Under the pieces are notes generated by a model. The model was not told the DNA's origin. It did not search any database and was given only the letters and a program-made list of their open reading frames with translations. A stretch of DNA of 47,808 nt from Prochlorococcus sp. AG-686-M10 (GTDB lineage: Bacteria > Cyanobacteriota > Cyanobacteriia > PCC-6307 > Cyanobiaceae). Location: positions 1 to 47,808 of the forward strand of contig QCVU01000002.1 in assembly GCA_003210275.1 (NCBI GenBank), read 5' to 3'. Below are positions 3,327 to 28,390 of this stretch, piece after piece; within the stretch, counting starts at the first letter, position 1; the number at the start of each line of letters is the position of its first letter. A program made the translations under genes and the position numbers.

Positions 3327-5231
3327 ATGGGGAAGGTTGTTGGAATCGATTTAGGGACAACTAATAGTTGTGTTGCTGTTATGGAAGGTGGTAAACCTAC
3401 TGTAATAGCAAATGCAGAGGGTTTCAGAACAACACCTTCTGTTGTCGCATATACAAAGAATCAAGATCAGCTAGTTGGGCAGATAGCAAAGCGACAAGCT
3501 GTTATGAATCCTGAAAATACTTTTTATTCAGCCAAACGTTTTGTTGGACGAAGAGTGGATGAGGTTAACGATGAATCAAAAGATGTTAGTTATGGTATTG
3601 AAAAGGCTGGTTCAAATGTAAAATTAAAATGTCCAATCTTAGATAAACAATTTTCTCCTGAAGAAGTAAGTGCTCAGGTTTTAAGAAAACTCTCCGATGA
3701 TGCAGGTAAATATTTAGGAGAAAATATCACTCAAGCTGTTATAACTGTTCCTGCTTATTTTAATGATTCTCAAAGACAAGCTACAAAAGATGCAGGTAAG
3801 ATAGCAGGGCTTGAAGTTTTAAGGATAATAAACGAGCCTACAGCTGCTGCATTGGCTTATGGTTTAGATAAAAAAAGTAACGAAAGAATACTAGTTTTTG
3901 ATCTAGGCGGTGGAACTTTTGACGTTTCAGTTTTAGAAGTTGGAGATGGTGTTTTCGAAGTCCTATCAACTTCTGGGGATACTCATTTAGGGGGTGATGA
4001 TTTTGATAGATGTATTGTTGATCATTTAGCAAGTATTTTTAAAAGTAATGAAGGTATTGATTTAAGACAGGACAAACAAGCTTTGCAACGTCTTACAGAA
4101 GCTGCTGAAAAGGCAAAAATTGAACTTTCAAATGCCACTCAAAGCGAAATTAACTTGCCTTTCATAACCGCTACTCCAGAAGGTCCAAAGCATCTTGATT
4201 TAAATCTCACTAGAGCTAATTTTGAGGAACTTGCTTCTAAATTAATTGATAGATGTAGAGTTCCTGTAGAACAAGCTCTTAAGGATGCCAAGCTATCTAC
4301 AGGAGAGATCGATGAAATAGTAATGGTTGGTGGTTCAACTAGAATGCCTGCTGTTCAAGAATTAGTTAAGAGAGTTACTGGTAAAGATCCTAATCAAACT
4401 GTAAATCCAGATGAGGTTGTAGCTGTGGGTGCAGCTATTCAAGGAGGAGTTTTAGCGGGTGAAGTTAAAGATATATTGTTGCTAGACGTTACTCCCTTAT
4501 CTCTTGGTGTAGAGACATTGGGGGGAGTAATGACAAAAATGATTACTCGTAACACAACCGTGCCAACAAAAAAATCTGAGACATATTCAACTGCTGTTGA
4601 TGGTCAAACTAATGTCGAGATTCATGTTTTGCAGGGTGAGAGAGAAATGGCCTCAGATAATAAAAGTTTAGGAACCTTTAGACTTGATGGTATTCCCTCT
4701 GCTCCAAGAGGTGTTCCGCAAATAGAAGTAACATTTGATATTGATGCAAATGGAATTTTAAGCGTTACCGCGAAAGATAAAGGAAGTGGTAAGGAACAAT
4801 CCATTTCCATAACAGGTGCCTCAACTCTTTCGGATAATGAGGTTGATAAAATGGTCAAAGATGCCGAATCAAACGCTTCTGTTGACAAAGAAAAAAGAGA
4901 GAAAATTGATTTAAAGAATCAAGCTGAAACTCTTGTTTATCAAACAGAAAAACAGTTGGGAGAACTTGGTGATAAGGTTGATGCTTCCGCTAAAACTAAG
5001 GTAGAAGAAAAAAGTAAAGCATTAAAAGAAGCAACTTCAAAAGATGATTATGAATCTATGAAGAAATTGTTAGAAGAACTTCAGCAAGAGCTTTACGCAA
5101 TAGGTTCCTCTGTTTATCAACAGCCAGGTAATCAGCCTCCAGCACCAGGTAGCCCCGACTCAAATGAATCTAATGAAAAAGGTAGTGATGATGATGTTAT
5201 TGACGCAGATTTTACAGAGACAAAAGATTAA
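3327..5231 (+). CDS. dnaK: Molecular chaperone DnaK (Hsp70), DnaK2-like
   Basis: ATP-driven chaperone working with DnaJ and GrpE. The ATPase domain begins [17 protein letters not shown] and contains [18 protein letters not shown] (about residues 192-209) and [12 protein letters not shown] (about 333-344). The substrate-binding domain starts after [14 protein letters not shown], and the C-terminal end [13 protein letters not shown] resembles the usual EEVxDADF tail. At 634 residues it is full length. Closeness to the essential DnaK2 group is judged from overall similarity and is not proven. Its stop codon overlaps the stop of the convergent FAD oxidase gene by 4 bp. Confidence 0.96.
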
Positions 5232-6310
5232 AGAAGATGATTTTTAATCTCAGTTGATATCCATTTAGAACAAGCAGGGGCAAGTAATATTCCATTTTTA
5301 TAAAAACCAGTACATAAAATTAACCCTTTTTCTAAACTTTTTAAAATCGGTGATGGTTCACCTTCTGGGCGAGACCTTATACCAAACCATTTATTAGTAA
5401 TATTATTTTTATTCAGCCACTGAGGTTTATTTTCTAGGAAATCTGTAAGTTCTTCAAATGTATTTTCTTTTGGTTCAATGTCATATTCGTCGGTAGATCC
5501 AATAATTAGCTTGTTCTTGTTTGTTCGAAGAAAATTTTTACCATTTATGCTGAAATGTTTAGGGAGAGATAGAAAATTAATCTCTTTTTCATTGATAGAA
5601 ATTTCTATAGCCTGACCTAACACAGGCTTTAACTTTATGTTATGACAATTCAAGTCAATTAATTTAATAGCATCAAGAGAGTTGCATAAAACTATGACAT
5701 CACTTGCAATTTCAAGTTTATTGCGGCACGTTGAAATCCATTGATTATTTAATTTTTTTATTTTTACTATTTCTTCATTAATAAAATTAATCTTTTTATC
5801 TTTTAGGACAATATTTAATGTTTTTAATAATGCAATAGGATCTATCCTGCCGTCTTGATCAGATATGATTCCTGTCAGGTTATTTATGTTGAATATTTTA
5901 TTAATATTTTGAATAATGGTGGAATTTTCTTCTAAAACTCTTAAATAACGCATTGGATGATGAGAAATAAACTTACTTAGTTTTTCAAATTTTTTTTGTT
6001 CTGTTGTTAGTTGGATTAATGGTTTCTCAATGTTTAAAGTTTTATTGTATTTTTGAAGAAATTTTATCCACTTTGGCCATAATTCATTACTTTTTTTTCT
6101 AAGTTCCCAACTTCTGCCTTTACTTTTTTGATACATATTACTTATTAGAAGACCTAATGATGCATTACTAGCATTTTTACTTTTTTGTGGATCTGCAATA
6201 GTTATCTTAAAACCTTGTTTAGATAGCTCCAATGCGTTAAATTTTCCAATAATTCCTGATCCTATAATTAATATGTGAGAATTTTTAAAACTCTTCTTTA
6301 ATACTTTCAT
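5228..6310 (-). CDS. FAD-dependent amine oxidase, ThiO/glycine oxidase-like
   Basis: A DAO-superfamily flavoenzyme. The dinucleotide-binding motif [21 protein letters not shown] is near residues 13-33. The C-terminal [15 protein letters not shown] matches the substrate/FAD-closing motif typical of ThiO and related D-amino-acid oxidases. At 360 residues the length fits. In cyanobacteria ThiO makes iminoglycine for the thiazole half of thiamine, sometimes as a fusion to ThiG; here it is free-standing. Thiamine synthesis is the best guess, while a D-amino-acid or glycine oxidase outside thiamine synthesis remains possible. The gene overlaps the dnaK stop codon tail to tail and is divergent from purU across 48 bp. 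Confidence 0.75.
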
Positions 6311-6358
6311 TGATATATTATAAGTAGTTAATCAAAAGATTAAATAATTTAGATTTTT

Positions 6359-7213
6359 TTGGAAAAACCATCAATCATTTTAAGAACTGTATGTCCTGAT
6401 CGTCCTGGATTAGTTAGTCAATTAACTAGCTGGATATCTAATTATGGTGGCAATATAAAGCATTCAGATCATCATACAGATCAAGATGCAGGATTATTTT
6501 TGAGTAGAATTGAATGGGATAGATGTGATTTATCAATTAACAAATCTGAAATTTATGAGCAATTTGAAAAAATTGCAATAGATATAAATGGCAATTTTAA
6601 TATTAATTATTCAGATGAGATACCAAATGTAGCAATTTTTGTAAGTAAGCAAAACCACTGCTTAATAGATTTGCTTTGGCGAGTAAGAAATAGTGAATTA
6701 AAAATGAATGTACCTTTAATAATTTCTAATCATCCTGATCTAAAAAGTATTGCTAAGGATTTTAATGCTAAATTTTTTTATGTTGATACATCTAATTCTT
6801 CAAAATCTAATGTAGAAAAACAAATTTTAAATTTGTTAAAAGATTTTGATATTGAACTCGTTGTGTTAGCTAAATATATGCAAATTTTAAGTGATTCTTT
6901 TTTGAAAAGTTTTTCTTCAATTATAAATATACATCATTCTTTTTTGCCTGCATTTAAAGGCGCACAACCTTATCATCGAGCATGGAAGAGAGGTGTGAAA
7001 TTAATTGGTGCAACTGCACATTATGTTACTCAAGACTTAGATGAAGGGCCAATAATTGAGCAATGTACTGTAAATGTAAGTCATAGGGATGAGGTTGCTG
7101 ATTTGATTAGAAAAGGACGAGATATTGAGAGGATAGCTCTTGCAAGAGCAGTAAGATTACATTTAAATCATCAGATTTTTGTATACGATTGCAAAACGGC
7201 TGTTTTTGATTAA
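6359..7213 (+). CDS. purU: Formyltetrahydrofolate deformylase
   Basis: Hydrolyses 10-formyl-THF to formate and THF, balancing the one-carbon pool. An ACT domain opens the protein (RTVCPDRPGLVSQLTSWI, about residues 9-26). The formyltransferase-like catalytic domain follows, with NIHHSFLPAFKGAQPYHRA (about 194-212) and ATAHYVTQDLDEGPIIEQ carrying the Asn, His and Asp catalytic set. At 284 residues it is normal. The start is TTG (6359); an in-frame TAG lies three codons upstream (6350-6352), so no ATG is available. The gene cluster for glycine cleavage (gcvT, gcvH, gcvP), which feeds the same folate pool, is also in this window. Confidence 0.93.
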   Translation: MEKPSIILRTVCPDRPGLVSQLTSWISNYGGNIKHSDHHTDQDAGLFLSRIEWDRCDLSINKSEIYEQFEKIAIDINGNFNINYSDEIPNVAIFVSKQNHCLIDLLWRVRNSELKMNVPLIISNHPDLKSIAKDFNAKFFYVDTSNSSKSNVEKQILNLLKDFDIELVVLAKYMQILSDSFLKSFSSIINIHHSFLPAFKGAQPYHRAWKRGVKLIGATAHYVTQDLDEGPIIEQCTVNVSHRDEVADLIRKGRDIERIALARAVRLHLNHQIFVYDCKTAVFD

Positions 7214-7225
7214 AAATCAGTTTTT

Positions 7226-8584
7226 TTACTCTTCTAATTCAATTTGTATTTGTCTCTCATAAATAGATTTTTCATTAAACGCTCTTGCAATTAAAAAACT
7301 TGTAATACAACTAATTAGAACAGGTTTCATTATTAATAAATTTTTTGTTAGTGCAAAAGCTAAGAACATAGCTGTTATAGGTGTTCTGGAACATCCTGCT
7401 ACAAATGCCCCCATCCCAGCAAAGATATATGTACTTGGGGCATGACCTGTGGCAATTTCTACCCAGTTTCCCATTATTAACCCTATAGCTCCACCCAACG
7501 TGAGCATTGGATAGAATAATCCTCCAGGTGCTCCTGAAGCGGCAGCTAAACCAGTTGTTATAAAAAGTATAAATACAGCTAAAAGAGCTATTTCAATACT
7601 GGTATTTTTTTCAGCTATTATGGTTTGTAATTCATCTAAATTGTGAAAAGAGCTAGGTAAAAAAGAATAAATGCTCCCAAGTAAAAGTCCGCAAATGCTC
7701 ATTTTTAAAATAAATTTATTTTTATACCATTTTTTTCCAAGATCTTGCATAAAAAGAACATACTTGCTGTAAAGTTCTGCAAATAATCCAATAATAACTC
7801 CCAGTAATAAAAGATAAATAAAATCTATTGGTAAGAAAAAGACAGATGGATCATATTCTTTTTGGATTAAAAATCCTAGGTTGAAGTCAAAACCTCCTGC
7901 TTTTGGGTCTAAACCCAAGGCTTGAATAATATCTGCAGAAGAATCTGCTATGAATGTTGTTATTACAACTATTAATAAGATTACCGGCTTTGCAGAATTT
8001 AATAATTCTTCAATAGCATAAACAAATCCACCTAAAGGAGCACTAAATACCGCAGCGATCCCTGCACCGCCTCCTGCTGCAACAAGTACTCTTCTAAATG
8101 CCAGAGGTGCTTTAAGCCATCGTGCCATTTGCCAAGCAACTGATCCTCCCATTTGAACTGATGGGCCTTCAGGGCCTAAAGGGAAACCACTACCAATTGC
8201 AATTATTCCAGATATTAATTTAACTAATCCAACTTTTAGATTCATGGGTACTTTTTTATGCCTTAAGAATCCCATGATTTGACTTACACCAGAACCTTTA
8301 GCAGCTGGAGCAATATTTTTAATTAAAAATCCTGCTATTGCTCCACCAACAGCACCAAATGCTGGTAAAACTGCAATGGATGGAAAATGATCTAAAAGTT
8401 CTAATCTCCAATCATTTATAAAATAAATACCAGTTTTAAAAGAAATACTAGTTATTGATGCTCCTAATCCTGTAAATAGAATCGATATTACGACGACAAA
8501 AGATCTTTGTTTAAGTAATTTTTTAATGCTTCGAGAGGAGTTATTACTAGTGTTTTGAATATTTTCTTTTATTTGGTTTTGCAT
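7226..8584 (-). CDS. ClC-family anion/proton antiporter
   Basis: A 452-residue polytopic protein of the ClC family. The three anion-filter motifs are visible: GSGVS (97-101), GSGFPLGPEGPSVQ with the gating glutamate E139, and GGLFYP in the C-terminal half. The IEELL segment at 191-195 carries a glutamate (E193) at the position of the internal proton glutamate of E. coli ClC-ec1. Both glutamates together argue for Cl-/H+ exchange rather than a passive channel; this follows from family knowledge, not a test. There are no C-terminal CBS domains. It lies 9 bp downstream of acnB on the same strand and may be co-transcribed. Confidence 0.9.
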   Translation of the reverse strand: MQNQIKENIQNTSNNSSRSIKKLLKQRSFVVVISILFTGLGASITSISFKTGIYFINDWRLELLDHFPSIAVLPAFGAVGGAIAGFLIKNIAPAAKGSGVSQIMGFLRHKKVPMNLKVGLVKLISGIIAIGSGFPLGPEGPSVQMGGSVAWQMARWLKAPLAFRRVLVAAGGGAGIAAVFSAPLGGFVYAIEELLNSAKPVILLIVVITTFIADSSADIIQALGLDPKAGGFDFNLGFLIQKEYDPSVFFLPIDFIYLLLLGVIIGLFAELYSKYVLFMQDLGKKWYKNKFILKMSICGLLLGSIYSFLPSSFHNLDELQTIIAEKNTSIEIALLAVFILFITTGLAAASGAPGGLFYPMLTLGGAIGLIMGNWVEIATGHAPSTYIFAGMGAFVAGCSRTPITAMFLAFALTKNLLIMKPVLISCITSFLIARAFNEKSIYERQIQIELEE

Positions 8585-8593
8585 AGTTCATTA

Positions 8594-11167
8594 TCATTTT
8601 GACAAATTAAAATTTTCTATTTCATCAAATTGAAGATAACGATAAAGTTCATCAGAGTATGGATATATTTTGTCTTTAGTAATATGTTGATACTCATTTA
8701 CAGTAGGTATTTTCCCTAGCAGAGCACAAACTGCTGCTAATTCAGCACTTCCTAAAAATACCTGGGCATTTTTGCCAAGTCTATTATCAAAATTTCGTGT
8801 GCTGGTTGAGAAGACTACAGAACCTTCATCTACTCTTGCTTGATTTCCCATGCATAATGAACAACCTGGTAACTCTAATTTTGCCCCACATTTTTCAAAT
8901 ATTTCATAGTATCCCTCTGCTTTGAGAGTTTCCTCATCCATTTTTGTTGGAGGGCAAATCCAAAGTTTTGCATTTAATTGTTCTATACCCTCGAGAACCT
9001 TAGCAGCAGCTCTGTAATGTCCGATATTAGTCATGCATGATCCTATAAAGACTTCATCGATCTCAGTATTTTCTACTTTTTGAATTTCTTTGACATTATC
9101 TGGATCATTTGGGCAAGCTACTATTGGTTGTGTAACTTCAGCAAGGTCTATTTCTATTATCTCTTCATAAGAGGCATTTTCATCTGGTTGAATTAATTCA
9201 GGTTGTTTGAGCCAAGTCTTCATATCAATAATTCTTCTTGATATTGATTTTGCATCTTCATAATTACTTTCTATCATTTTCTCTAAGAGGCAAATGTTAC
9301 TTTTTAAATATTCTTCTACAGTTTTATGTGATAAGAGTATTGTGCTCCCAGCGCAGGAGCGTTCAGCTGTGGCATCAGTCAATTCAAAAGCTTGTTCAAG
9401 TTTTAAATCAGGTAAACCTTCTATTTCCATAATTTTCCCGTTGAATATATTTTGCTTATTTTCTTTGGCAACTGTTAATAGACCTTTTTTAATTGCAAAG
9501 AGTGGAATTGCATTGACAAGATCTCGTAGTGTGATTCCTGGTAGTAAACTTCCTCTAAATTTTACTAATACTGATTCTGGCATATTTAATGGCATTGATC
9601 CTATTGCTGCAGCAAAAGCAACAATACCTGAGCCTCCTGGGAAGGAAATTCCAAGAGGGAATCTTGTATGACTATCACCACCTGTTCCCACAGTGTCAGG
9701 AAGAAGCATTCTATTCAGCCAACTATGGATTATGCCGTCTCCAGGTTTAAGGGCTACACCACCTCTTTGTGATATAAAATCAGGCAATTCTTGATGCGTC
9801 ACTAAATCAACTGGTTTAGGATATGCAGCAGTATGACAAAAACTTTGCATTACTAAATCCGCAGTAAAACCTAAACAAGCTAGTTCTTTAAGTTCATCTC
9901 TAGTCATTGGACCAGTTGTATCTTGGCTACCAACAGTTGTCATAATGGGTTCACATGTCGTGCCAGGAAGAACTCCTTCTAATCCACATGCCTTACCTAC
10001 TATTTTTTGTGCTTGAGTAAACCCAGTATTAATCTCTTTTGGACTTTTTGGACGTATAAATATTTCACTGGGCTCTAATTCAAGTTTTTTTCTGATTTTA
10101 TCGGTGAGAGATCTTCCAATCATAAGATTTATTCTTCCACCAGCTTGAATTTCATCTGTAAGTGTTGATGGGTTTAATTTGAAATGACTAATTACTAATT
10201 CAGTATTTGTAATTTTATCTATTTTTTTAATGAGACCTTCATAGGGCAATATTTTTAGTAAATCACCAGTCTTAATGTCAGAGACATCAGTTTCAATTGG
10301 AAGAGCGCCTGAATCTTGGGCGGTATTAAAGAAAATTGGTGCTATTTTGTTTCCTATTATTATCCCACCAGTTTTTTTATTAGGAACAAAGGGAATATTT
10401 TCGCCTATATGCCAAATAACAGAATTAATGGCAGATTTTCTTGAACTTCCAGTGCCAACAACATCTCCAACATAAGCTATTTGTATATTCTGCTTTTTAA
10501 GATCATCAAGAGTTTTAAGTCCATCTTGCCTCTTGAATTCAAGCATGGATAATGAGTGAAGTGGTATATCTGGACGGGTTGTAGCATGAACTGCCGGAGA
10601 TAAGTCATCAGTATTTGTTTCACCATCAATTTTGAATGCTAAACATGTAATTTCTTTTGGAAGAGAAGTTTTAGTTGTAAACCATTCTGCATTCGCCCAA
10701 CTATTTATAACCTCTTTTGCATAAATATTATTTTGAGATAAATCAAAAATATCATTAGCTGCATCGTAAACAAGGATAATATTCTTTAAAACTTGTGCTG
10801 CTTCTTGGGCAAGTAAATTGTTTTTACTTTTGAGTATCTCAATAAGTGAATTAACGTTATATCCTCCGATCATTGTTCCCAGAATTTGTATCGCTTTTTG
10901 GGAATTAATGAATTTGCAATCTTTTTCTTTATTAACAATCGCTGTAAGCCAGCTTGCTTTTATGTATGCTGCTTCATCCACTCCTGGCGGTACTCTATTA
11001 ATAAGTAAATCCAGTAGATATTCACTTTCGGAATTATTTTCTTGTTCTAATAGTTGTGTAACACAATTTATCTGCTCTGCATTGAGAGGTAATGGAGGGA
11101 TGCCTTGAGCAGCTCTTTCAGCTACGTGGTCGGTATAATCTTTGAGCAATGTTTCCAATTTCTTCAT
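8594..11167 (-). CDS. acnB: Bifunctional aconitate hydratase B
   Basis: Converts citrate to isocitrate via cis-aconitate in the TCA branch that supplies 2-oxoglutarate for nitrogen assimilation. The protein (857 aa) begins with the AcnB-specific HEAT-like N-terminal domain (RAAQGIPPLPLNAEQ), followed by the swivel domain and the three catalytic domains. The 4Fe-4S cysteine regions are present: FIGSCMTNIGHYRAAAK and LPGCSLCMGNQARV near the C-terminus. Length and order match AcnB rather than AcnA. The gene is divergent from the DAHP synthase gene across about 100 bp. The three plus-strand track ORFs inside it are shadows. Confidence 0.96.
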   Translation of the reverse strand: MKKLETLLKDYTDHVAERAAQGIPPLPLNAEQINCVTQLLEQENNSESEYLLDLLINRVPPGVDEAAYIKASWLTAIVNKEKDCKFINSQKAIQILGTMIGGYNVNSLIEILKSKNNLLAQEAAQVLKNIILVYDAANDIFDLSQNNIYAKEVINSWANAEWFTTKTSLPKEITCLAFKIDGETNTDDLSPAVHATTRPDIPLHSLSMLEFKRQDGLKTLDDLKKQNIQIAYVGDVVGTGSSRKSAINSVIWHIGENIPFVPNKKTGGIIIGNKIAPIFFNTAQDSGALPIETDVSDIKTGDLLKILPYEGLIKKIDKITNTELVISHFKLNPSTLTDEIQAGGRINLMIGRSLTDKIRKKLELEPSEIFIRPKSPKEINTGFTQAQKIVGKACGLEGVLPGTTCEPIMTTVGSQDTTGPMTRDELKELACLGFTADLVMQSFCHTAAYPKPVDLVTHQELPDFISQRGGVALKPGDGIIHSWLNRMLLPDTVGTGGDSHTRFPLGISFPGGSGIVAFAAAIGSMPLNMPESVLVKFRGSLLPGITLRDLVNAIPLFAIKKGLLTVAKENKQNIFNGKIMEIEGLPDLKLEQAFELTDATAERSCAGSTILLSHKTVEEYLKSNICLLEKMIESNYEDAKSISRRIIDMKTWLKQPELIQPDENASYEEIIEIDLAEVTQPIVACPNDPDNVKEIQKVENTEIDEVFIGSCMTNIGHYRAAAKVLEGIEQLNAKLWICPPTKMDEETLKAEGYYEIFEKCGAKLELPGCSLCMGNQARVDEGSVVFSTSTRNFDNRLGKNAQVFLGSAELAAVCALLGKIPTVNEYQHITKDKIYPYSDELYRYLQFDEIENFNLSK

Positions 11168-25445: not shown

Positions 25446-26558
25446 TTAAATATCTTTTTTATAAAAAGCTCTCTTCGTTAATGTTCCTTTAAATGTTTTC
25501 CCTCTGATTAAAATTTCAACAACATTATTTAAAGTTGCGTGAGAATTTTGAATATAAGCAAAAGCTATTGCCTTTTGCTTCGTCGGTGACCAACTACCGC
25601 TAGTTATAGTTCCAATATTTTTTCCATCTTTAAATACTTCGCATCCTTTTCTTCCAATAGCTCTCCCCTCAATAGTTAGACCTACTAACTTTTTCTTAAT
25701 ACCGAATCTTGATTGTTTTTCAAGAAAATCTCTCCCAAAAAATTCATGATTATTTTCTAAATGTACTAGCCAACCTAATCCTGCTTCATACGGTGTAGTT
25801 GTTTCATCTAAATCTTGTCCATATAAGTGCATTCCCGCTTCAAGTCTTAAGGTATCTCTAGCACCTAATCCACAAGGCTCAATATTTTTTGAAACTAAGA
25901 AATCCCATAAATTAATTGCTGCATTCGCGGATAATAAGATTTCTAAACCGTTTTCACCTGTGTAGCCTGTTTTTGAAAAGAAAATTTTTTCTTCAGTTGA
26001 AATATGTTGAAAAATTTTATATTCACAACCAAAGTAAGGAATATATGAAATCGACGATTCAATCCATTCTTCGAATAATTTAAAGGAATTTTTTCCCTGA
26101 AGTGCAAGGAGAACCTTATCTTTTTTAGCGTTTGATATAGAAATATTGTTGGTATTTAAATTATTTTTAATCCAAGAAAAATCAATTTGGTATCTGCTTG
26201 CATTTACTATTAAAAGAATTTCTGAGATATCACCTTCTTGTTGACCAAGGTCATAAATTATTAGGTCATCTATAATTCCTCCCTTTTCATTTAGCATTAA
26301 TGTATAAAGCCCTTGCCCTTCTGAAAAGGAGTATAAATTAGTAGGAAAAAATTTTTGAATATATTCTTTAGGATTAATACCTTTAAGAGAAATTACACCC
26401 ATGTGGGAAATATCAAAGAATCCTGCTGATTCTCTTACTGCTTCATGTTCATTTATTAATCCCGAAAAGGATATGGGCATTTCCCATCCTGCAAAATTGA
26501 CTAACTTTGCATTTGACTTAATATATTTTGAATAAAGTGGACTTTTAAGCAAATCCAT
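25446..26558 (-). CDS. gcvT: Aminomethyltransferase, glycine cleavage T protein
   Basis: Transfers the methylene group from the H-protein aminomethyl arm to THF, releasing ammonia. The N-terminus ([24 protein letters not shown]) and SHMGVI are family hallmarks, and [21 protein letters not shown] (about residues 232-252) is the folate-site segment. At 370 residues it is normal. The partner genes gcvH and gcvP are about 18 kb away on the plus strand, so the system is split. The gene lies downstream of mazG-speE-speB on the same strand. The 103-bp gap to speB carries a 44-bp duplicate. Confidence 0.95.
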
Positions 26559-26626
26559 GAAATATTTAATGAGTTATTTAGTCTTTTATACTCTAGTTTA
26601 GAAATTTTTTATTGCATATTTTTTAA

Positions 26627-26714
26627 TGACATAATTAAGCTTCTCATTACTTTTGCTGCAACTATACTACTGACATAATTAAGCTTCTCAGTACTTTTGC
26701 TGCAACTACACTAC
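26627..26714. repeat. 44-bp direct tandem duplication at the 3' end of speB
   Basis: Copy 1 (26627-26670) and copy 2 (26671-26714) are adjacent and differ at two positions only: TCATTAC/TCAGTAC and CTATACT/CTACACT. Copy 2 lies entirely in the speB coding frame, while copy 1 spans the speB stop codon and the intergenic DNA. Because 44 is not a multiple of three, translation leaves frame after copy 2 and stops at 26662. Read in the speB frame, copy 1 would encode SSIVAAKVMRSLIMS, equal to the coding copy except for two conservative changes (V to I, L to M). Confidence 0.9.
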
Positions 26715-27537
26715 TGACTCCGCTGTTATCAATTTCTGGAGATAATTCCACAATATCTGAAGCAACAATTCTAAAGTTTTTTAAAGTTTCAAGAATCACT
26801 TCAAAGTCATTCCAAAAAAAACCTCCTGGTTCTGGAGTCCCCGTGCCAGGTAATAAACTTGGATCAAACCAATCCAAATCTATTGTTAAATATATTGGAG
26901 AATTAGAGTAGGGAAGAAGAGCTTTTTTTAATTCTTGGGCATTTTCTCCTGGCAAGAATTTTACTAATTGATTGTGTTGACCCATAAATTTAAACTCTTC
27001 TTTGGTGCCACTTCTTATTCCAACTTGCAAAATCTTTTTTTTAGGTAAGACATCTAAGCATCTTTGCATTGCACAGGCATGACTATGTTCATTTCCCATA
27101 TATGAGTTTCTTAAATCTGCATGAGCATCTAGTTGAATTAAAATAAGATCTGGATATTTATTTACTAACGCCTCAATAGCACCACTAGTAATAGAGTGCT
27201 CACCTCCAAGCATAATGGGAGTAAGGCTTTGACTAATAATAAAATCTGTTGCTGATTTGACTGATTTAATGACAGACTTTGAGTCATTTTTATTTATTTC
27301 TAGTGAACCAAAATCAACATAATTAAAATCTTCTAAATCTTTGCCTAATCTTGGACAAAATGTTTCTAAGCATGTGCTTACTTGCCTGATGGCATTTGGA
27401 CCAAATCTAGTCCCTGACTTATAAGAGCACGTACCATCATAATTGACCCCAAATATTCCAATTGAACAGTCATCAAGATTTCTTTTAGCCCCCATAAAAA
27501 TTGCACTTTCGTTATCAAATAAATTTTTATTGATCAT
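26662..27537 (-). CDS. speB: Agmatinase/ureohydrolase family enzyme
   Basis: Mn-type ureohydrolase, likely agmatine to putrescine plus urea given the adjacent speE. Metal-site motifs are GGEHSIT (about residue 107), QLDAHADLR (about 130) and TIDLDWFDPSLLPGTGTPEPGG (about 215). The track starts at a TTG (27561); the ATG at 27537 overlaps the speE stop by 11 bp and is preferred (291 aa). The 3' end has been altered by a 44-bp tandem duplication, so the protein ends LIMSVV instead of a probable LIMSLKNMQ. Some cyanobacterial ureohydrolases act on guanidine or other substrates, so the exact substrate is inferred from context. Confidence 0.88.
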   Translation of the reverse strand: MINKNLFDNESAIFMGAKRNLDDCSIGIFGVNYDGTCSYKSGTRFGPNAIRQVSTCLETFCPRLGKDLEDFNYVDFGSLEINKNDSKSVIKSVKSATDFIISQSLTPIMLGGEHSITSGAIEALVNKYPDLILIQLDAHADLRNSYMGNEHSHACAMQRCLDVLPKKKILQVGIRSGTKEEFKFMGQHNQLVKFLPGENAQELKKALLPYSNSPIYLTIDLDWFDPSLLPGTGTPEPGGFFWNDFEVILETLKNFRIVASDIVELSPEIDNSGVSSVVAAKVLRSLIMSVV

Positions 27538-28390
27538 TTTTCGAATTGAGTTCTTTTGCAATTTTATTTGGCATCATTTTAAATGCAGCATTTTGAAAAT
27601 TTAAATTCCAAACATCACAACCCTCTTCAATTCTCATGACTTCTTTGTAATTGAGTTTTGATAAATTTAATTCTTCCTCTGAAGCGAATGTCCAACTCCA
27701 AATACCACTTGGATATATGGGCACAAATGAATACATAGTTTCAGATAATTTAAATATTTTATTGAGTGATTTTAAAATATGTATATGAATATTTTTGAAC
27801 GATTCAGGCGATTCACTTTGAGTCGCTAATATCCCCTTTTTAGTAAGTATTCTTTTACATCCTTTATAAAAAGAATCTGTAAATAACAAATTAGAAAATT
27901 CTGATGGATCTGAACAATCTATAAAAATAACATCATAAAAATTATCTTTAGTTTTTTCTACCCATTTAACACCATCATCAATATTTATAGATAATCTTTT
28001 ATCACTCCAAGCTTCACCTCCAATTTCTTGTAAAAATGTTTTCGATACTTGTATGACATCTTCATCAATTTCTACCAAATCAATTTTCGTAACTTGAGAG
28101 TATTTTAAGCATTCTCTTGCAGTTCCACCATCACCCCCTCCAATAATCAGTATATGAGATTTCTTATCAAGACTACTTAACGCTGGATGAACAAGACATT
28201 CATGATAATATTTTTCATCTCTCAATGATGTCATCCAACATCCATCTAACATTAAAGCTTTACCATAAAAATCATTTTCTATAATGAGAATTTCTTGATA
28301 TTTAGATTTTTTTTTAAGTAATACTTTCCCCTTGAGCCCAAATCTTGAGCCTTTATTATACTCATCTATCCAAGTTGGCATATCTTTCAT
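27527..28390 (-). CDS. speE: Spermidine synthase (polyamine aminopropyltransferase)
   Basis: Transfers an aminopropyl group from decarboxylated SAM to putrescine. The cofactor loop ILIIGGGDGGTARECLKY is near residues 80-97, and DVIFIDCSDPSEFSNLLFTDSFY carries the catalytic aspartates. At 287 residues it is normal. It overlaps mazG by 4 bp (ATGA) at its start and speB by 11 bp at its end, pointing to a coupled mazG-speE-speB transcript. Whether the product is spermidine or another polyamine is not decided by sequence alone. Confidence 0.94.
   Translation of the reverse strand: MKDMPTWIDEYNKGSRFGLKGKVLLKKKSKYQEILIIENDFYGKALMLDGCWMTSLRDEKYYHECLVHPALSSLDKKSHILIIGGGDGGTARECLKYSQVTKIDLVEIDEDVIQVSKTFLQEIGGEAWSDKRLSINIDDGVKWVEKTKDNFYDVIFIDCSDPSEFSNLLFTDSFYKGCKRILTKKGILATQSESPESFKNIHIHILKSLNKIFKLSETMYSFVPIYPSGIWSWTFASEEELNLSKLNYKEVMRIEEGCDVWNLNFQNAAFKMMPNKIAKELNSKNDQ

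Follow-up and report, generated by a model that had tools for sequence, protein, structure and literature searches.

Tandem duplication by replication slippage at microhomologies copies tens of bases head to tail between short boundary repeats, and its effect on a reading frame is set by the length of the unit. The duplication described here, at the 3′ end of speB in Prochlorococcus sp. AG-686-M10, has the same form, with GTCA as its boundary repeat, and does not differ in kind from that class. Relative to most slippage tandem duplications it is older, being common to three lineages, and its ancestral 4 bp repeat is presumed. The gene affected belongs to the agmatinase SpeB family (TIGR01230; PF00491). 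Genomes that carry the duplication share with the rest of the genus a full catalytic domain, the metal-ligand motifs and the gene order speE–speB–gcvT, whereas their SpeB ends in SVV and that of the other members in S-L/V-K/Q/E-N-M-Q. Which substrate marine cyanobacterial ureohydrolases use has been described as hard to assign by sequence (PMC2242806). Among the results listed in paper searches, none dealt with this duplication or with the tails of speB in Prochlorococcus.

A 44 bp tandem duplication replaces the C terminus of SpeB

The window, by which we mean the whole 47,808 nt stretch of DNA analyzed, contains four tandem arrays, the highest-scoring of which spans positions 26,627 to 26,718 (Tandem Repeats Finder: period 44, 2.1 copies, 95% match, score 170). 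A reading made from the sequence alone (hereafter the sequence-only reading) had described two adjacent 44 bp copies with two differing sites, and repeat detection and alignment of the copies confirmed this. The copies, at 26,627 to 26,670 and 26,671 to 26,714, directly abut and are identical at 42 of 44 bases, which for neighboring units is not chance. The array reaches 26,718 because the coding copy is flanked at its upstream boundary (26,715–26,718, minus strand) by one more TGAC, the third GTCA as read on the coding strand; with the GTCAs at the unit ends it makes up the proposed 4 bp mediating repeat. The coding-strand arrangement is GTCA-[40]-GTCA-[40]-GTCA. Across related long loci totaling ~268 kb, tandem arrays with a period of at least 15 and a match of at least 90% were limited to this same array in the two other carriers.

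speB (26,662–27,537) lies on the minus strand, between speE upstream (28,390–27,527, minus) and gcvT downstream (25,446–26,558, minus; assigned by profile matches). It starts at an ATG at 27,537, stops at a TAG at 26,662 to 26,664 and encodes a 291 aa agmatinase-family ureohydrolase ending in LRSLIMSVV. The ORF called mechanically for speB begins at TTG 27,561; the alignment of relatives favors ATG 27,537, a start that gives an 11-base overlap with the end of speE (window 27,527–27,561).

The final SpeB codons (...SSVVAAKVLRSLIMS) lie in the coding copy (26,671–26,714, minus), whose sequence is identical in all three carriers. From there the frame runs, shifted, into the stranded second copy (26,627–26,670, minus), which supplies the two V codons at which SpeB now ends, followed by the TAG stop, and is otherwise noncoding. 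As 44 is not divisible by three, the end SVV replaces SLKNMQ, so that the last five amino acids of SpeB are exchanged for two. Read without one 44 bp unit, the frame gives LIMSLKNMQ and a TAA at 26,609 to 26,611. Translation thus upheld the proposed frame shift to LIMSVV, and the proposed reading of the locus minus one copy agrees with several single-copy relatives, which encode LIMSLKNMQ. The retired LKNMQ codons, the old TAA and the first ~15 bases of a conserved block (26,594–26,626, minus) are noncoding here, and the speB–gcvT gap (26,559–26,661, minus) measures 103 nt in carriers versus about 50 nt, and 49 to 51 nt in nearly all cases, at single-copy loci.

Three genomes share the duplication

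The genus set comprised 266 genomes, 239 of which were matched in a SpeB search. The 40-base junction between the copies is present exactly, with zero mismatches, in three of the 266: the window genome (G000), G052 and G066. It was found in no other genome of the set with up to three mismatches allowed, nor in viral contigs. G052 is Prochlorococcus sp. AG-686-P16, a single-cell genome from plate AG-686 (biosample SWC-31; North Pacific, 36.57 N, 158 W, 65 m; PMC6122165). Comparison of the 3′ end of speB and the speB–gcvT gap among relatives, as the sequence-only reading had recommended, gave the same junction in the three carriers and a single copy at the other loci inspected. The ending ...MQ is kept at 139 of 139 inspected single-copy loci, some of which are the same genome repeated. 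The duplication is therefore neither strain specific nor common to the whole group.

Over 14.1 kb around the array, G000 differs from G052 by 1.5% and from G066 by 4.0%; the closest single-copy genome compared, G065, is 4.6% from G000. Since it is common to three lineages 1.5 to 4.0% apart, the duplication is not fresh. Divergence between G000 and G066 is uneven, mostly ~1% from 27 kb to the window end and 5 to 8% at 19 to 26 kb. Between 20 and 26 kb, G066 (loci L115 and L172) is only 1.3 to 2.1% from the MED4-like genome G033. Because of this low divergence, set against the 5 to 8% from G000, G066 appears to hold imported DNA and looks mosaic. The last stretch of this DNA, at ~25.75 to 26.6 kb, resembles no genome examined and ends adjoining the array, which places a recombination breakpoint in G066 within tens of bases of the duplication. 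The array itself lies at the margin of the closely related part, and descent from a common ancestor of that part explains its sharing best. The two sites of the stranded copy that are private to G066 could have come with the import. We take G033 to be strain MED4, which would put the carrier group near HLI. At window positions 5,000 to 11,000, divergence from G033 is 10 to 25%, versus 4 to 10% in most of the remaining window.

The two copies probably derive from one allele

Relative to the coding copy, the stranded copy has two changed sites in G000, three in G066 and one in G052. Unit position 6 (the V/I site) is changed from G to A in all three carriers; position 24 is C-to-A in G000 and C-to-G in G066; and position 38 is T-to-C in G066 alone. 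The L/M difference, previously taken as a sign of diverged alleles, is absent from G052 and shows another base in G066, and so it postdates the duplication. A difference at one site is all that the copies need have had at the split of the three lineages, and a single postduplication mutation would explain that site (V/I, G/A), the sole difference common to all carriers. Between carriers, the stranded copy differs at 1 to 2 of 44 sites (2.3–4.5%), near the speB dS of 2.3 to 4.0%, although such small counts do not support a test.

Both copies contain GTTGCAGCAAAA, which is found in no close (HLI-like) single-copy relative. Within the carriers each copy reads GCA-GCA, whereas the first Ala codon of close single-copy relatives is GCC, GCT or GCG; GCA-GCA does occur in a few more distant genomes (~80% protein identity). 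This shared signature argues for one source allele, from which both copies most likely derive. Had two alleles been joined, each copy should lie nearer to a different single-copy allele; what we found is a private signature common to both and a one-site difference in G052.

Unequal homologous recombination that joined two diverged speB alleles end to end, the origin favored by the sequence-only reading, is consistent with a genuine polymorphism among relatives at the V/I site, which is G in the coding copy and A in the stranded copy. Homologous recombination is also active here, given that the import in G066 ends beside the array and that the C-to-G and T-to-C sites could be donor derived. Against this stand the single-site difference between the copies of G052, a signature that both copies carry and that is unseen in close single-copy alleles, and an L/M site already accounted for by later change. 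On these alignments, joined alleles appear mostly refuted and are an unlikely origin. Of the earlier contrast between diverged alleles and fresh slippage, the judgment that the event is not fresh thus stood, and the allelic part did not.

The adjacent 44 bp units, 43 of 44 bases identical in G052, have the form of head-to-tail copies made in place. In carriers GTCA stands at all three unit boundaries. Nearly all close single-copy relatives have GTCA at the downstream boundary; at the upstream boundary single-copy relatives read GT[T/G/A]A, so the C of the upstream GTC, unseen among them, probably preceded the event, although it may instead have changed since, and a 4 bp GTCA repeat is assumed in the ancestor. 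We favor, at a probability of about 0.88, a single in-place duplication of one allele across this GTCA repeat, followed by drift, with a nil or slight effect on the enzyme. In the ancestor of three HLI-like Prochlorococcus lineages, the 44 bp unit at the 3′ end of speB would have been duplicated once, with a single allele copied through replication slippage or unequal exchange between GTCA repeats 44 bp apart. The second copy and the old tail would thereby have dropped into the speB–gcvT gap, where the copy would then have drifted. We infer both the slippage mechanism and the single origin.

Nucleotide conservation at the speB–gcvT border

Consensus match is 0.889 over the 16 nt past the speB stop, relative to 0.765 at four-fold speB sites and 0.760 in the next 29 nt of the gap. 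These figures come from 71 distinct single-copy tails, a count used in place of one demanding exact ATGCAATAA, which is biased. The difference between 0.889 and the two reference values therefore probably reflects nucleotide-level constraint at the border. Such constraint may help explain the conserved NMQ codons and suggests a control element for gcvT at window positions 26,593 to 26,611. The segment from 26,594 to 26,626, which runs from the old tail codons through the old stop into the first bases of the block, is unchanged in the three carriers, but 33 bases have little power at this divergence. It is a possible, if doubtful, interpretation that the NMQ tail is conserved mainly as DNA of a border element, perhaps a gcvT promoter or leader, and not for the protein. 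If so, the duplication would be a natural experiment in which the coding role was removed and the element kept. Rfam searches of the array region returned only unrelated families, far below gathering scores; promoter and terminator scans gave no excess over shuffles; and the array has an unremarkable predicted RNA fold (z = −1.3).

The catalytic core of SpeB is intact and under purifying selection

SpeB scores 245.5 bits against the agmatinase model TIGR01230 (cutoff 174.3), aligned to residue 288, and 244.7 against Pfam PF00491 Arginase (cutoff 22), aligned to residue 287. With a model score above the curated cutoff, it is a predicted agmatinase-type ureohydrolase. Six positions that we take, from knowledge of the family, to be the metal ligands (H114, D137, H139, D141, D220 and D222), together with the motifs GGEHS, DAHAD and DLD, are present and invariant across 22 aligned sequences. 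The domain models and the closest solved chains reach only residue 287 to 288 of 291; therefore only the extreme tail of SpeB is altered. The predicted structure, which is weak (mean pLDDT 61, shallow alignment), has its last helix ending at residue 290. Values of dN/dS for speB between carriers are 0.155, 0.183 and 0.261, and thus SpeB is still kept by purifying selection. Because the catalytic domain ends before the altered tail and speB remains under this selection, the consequence for the enzyme is probably nil or slight, and we infer that the duplication is near neutral. Past its last conserved residues, the SpeB tail differs in length and sequence among related genera; its near-invariance within the genus hints that the tail may matter.

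Retention in three lineages, the doubling of a gap otherwise held at 49 to 51 nt, and the loss of a near-invariant tail would fit an adaptive duplication, which either changed SpeB function or uncoupled gcvT from speB through the wider gap. Adaptation is a very unlikely account, however: the array showed no excess of promoters or terminators, matched no RNA family and has no unusual fold, related genera have variable tails, and only 3 of 266 genomes carry the duplication. That assembly or amplification of single-cell DNA produced an artefact is conceivable for a window assembly of 97 contigs and 66% completeness and for G052, a single-amplified genome (MDA or WGA-X), but has a negligible probability, since the same exact junction occurs in three assemblies made separately, of which one is 99% complete, with different private substitutions inside the repeat.

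The tandem duplication at this locus is real and lineage restricted, most likely arose once, and has a small effect on the C terminus; it is an ordinary mutation of little importance alone. It can be used to mark HLI-like Prochlorococcus lineages of common descent, and it provides a natural test of whether the protein or the DNA of the conserved speB end is what is needed. In many genomes of the genus SpeB is matched twice, and in a few the only match is at ~1e-26; these hits suggest that part of the genus has a second ureohydrolase.
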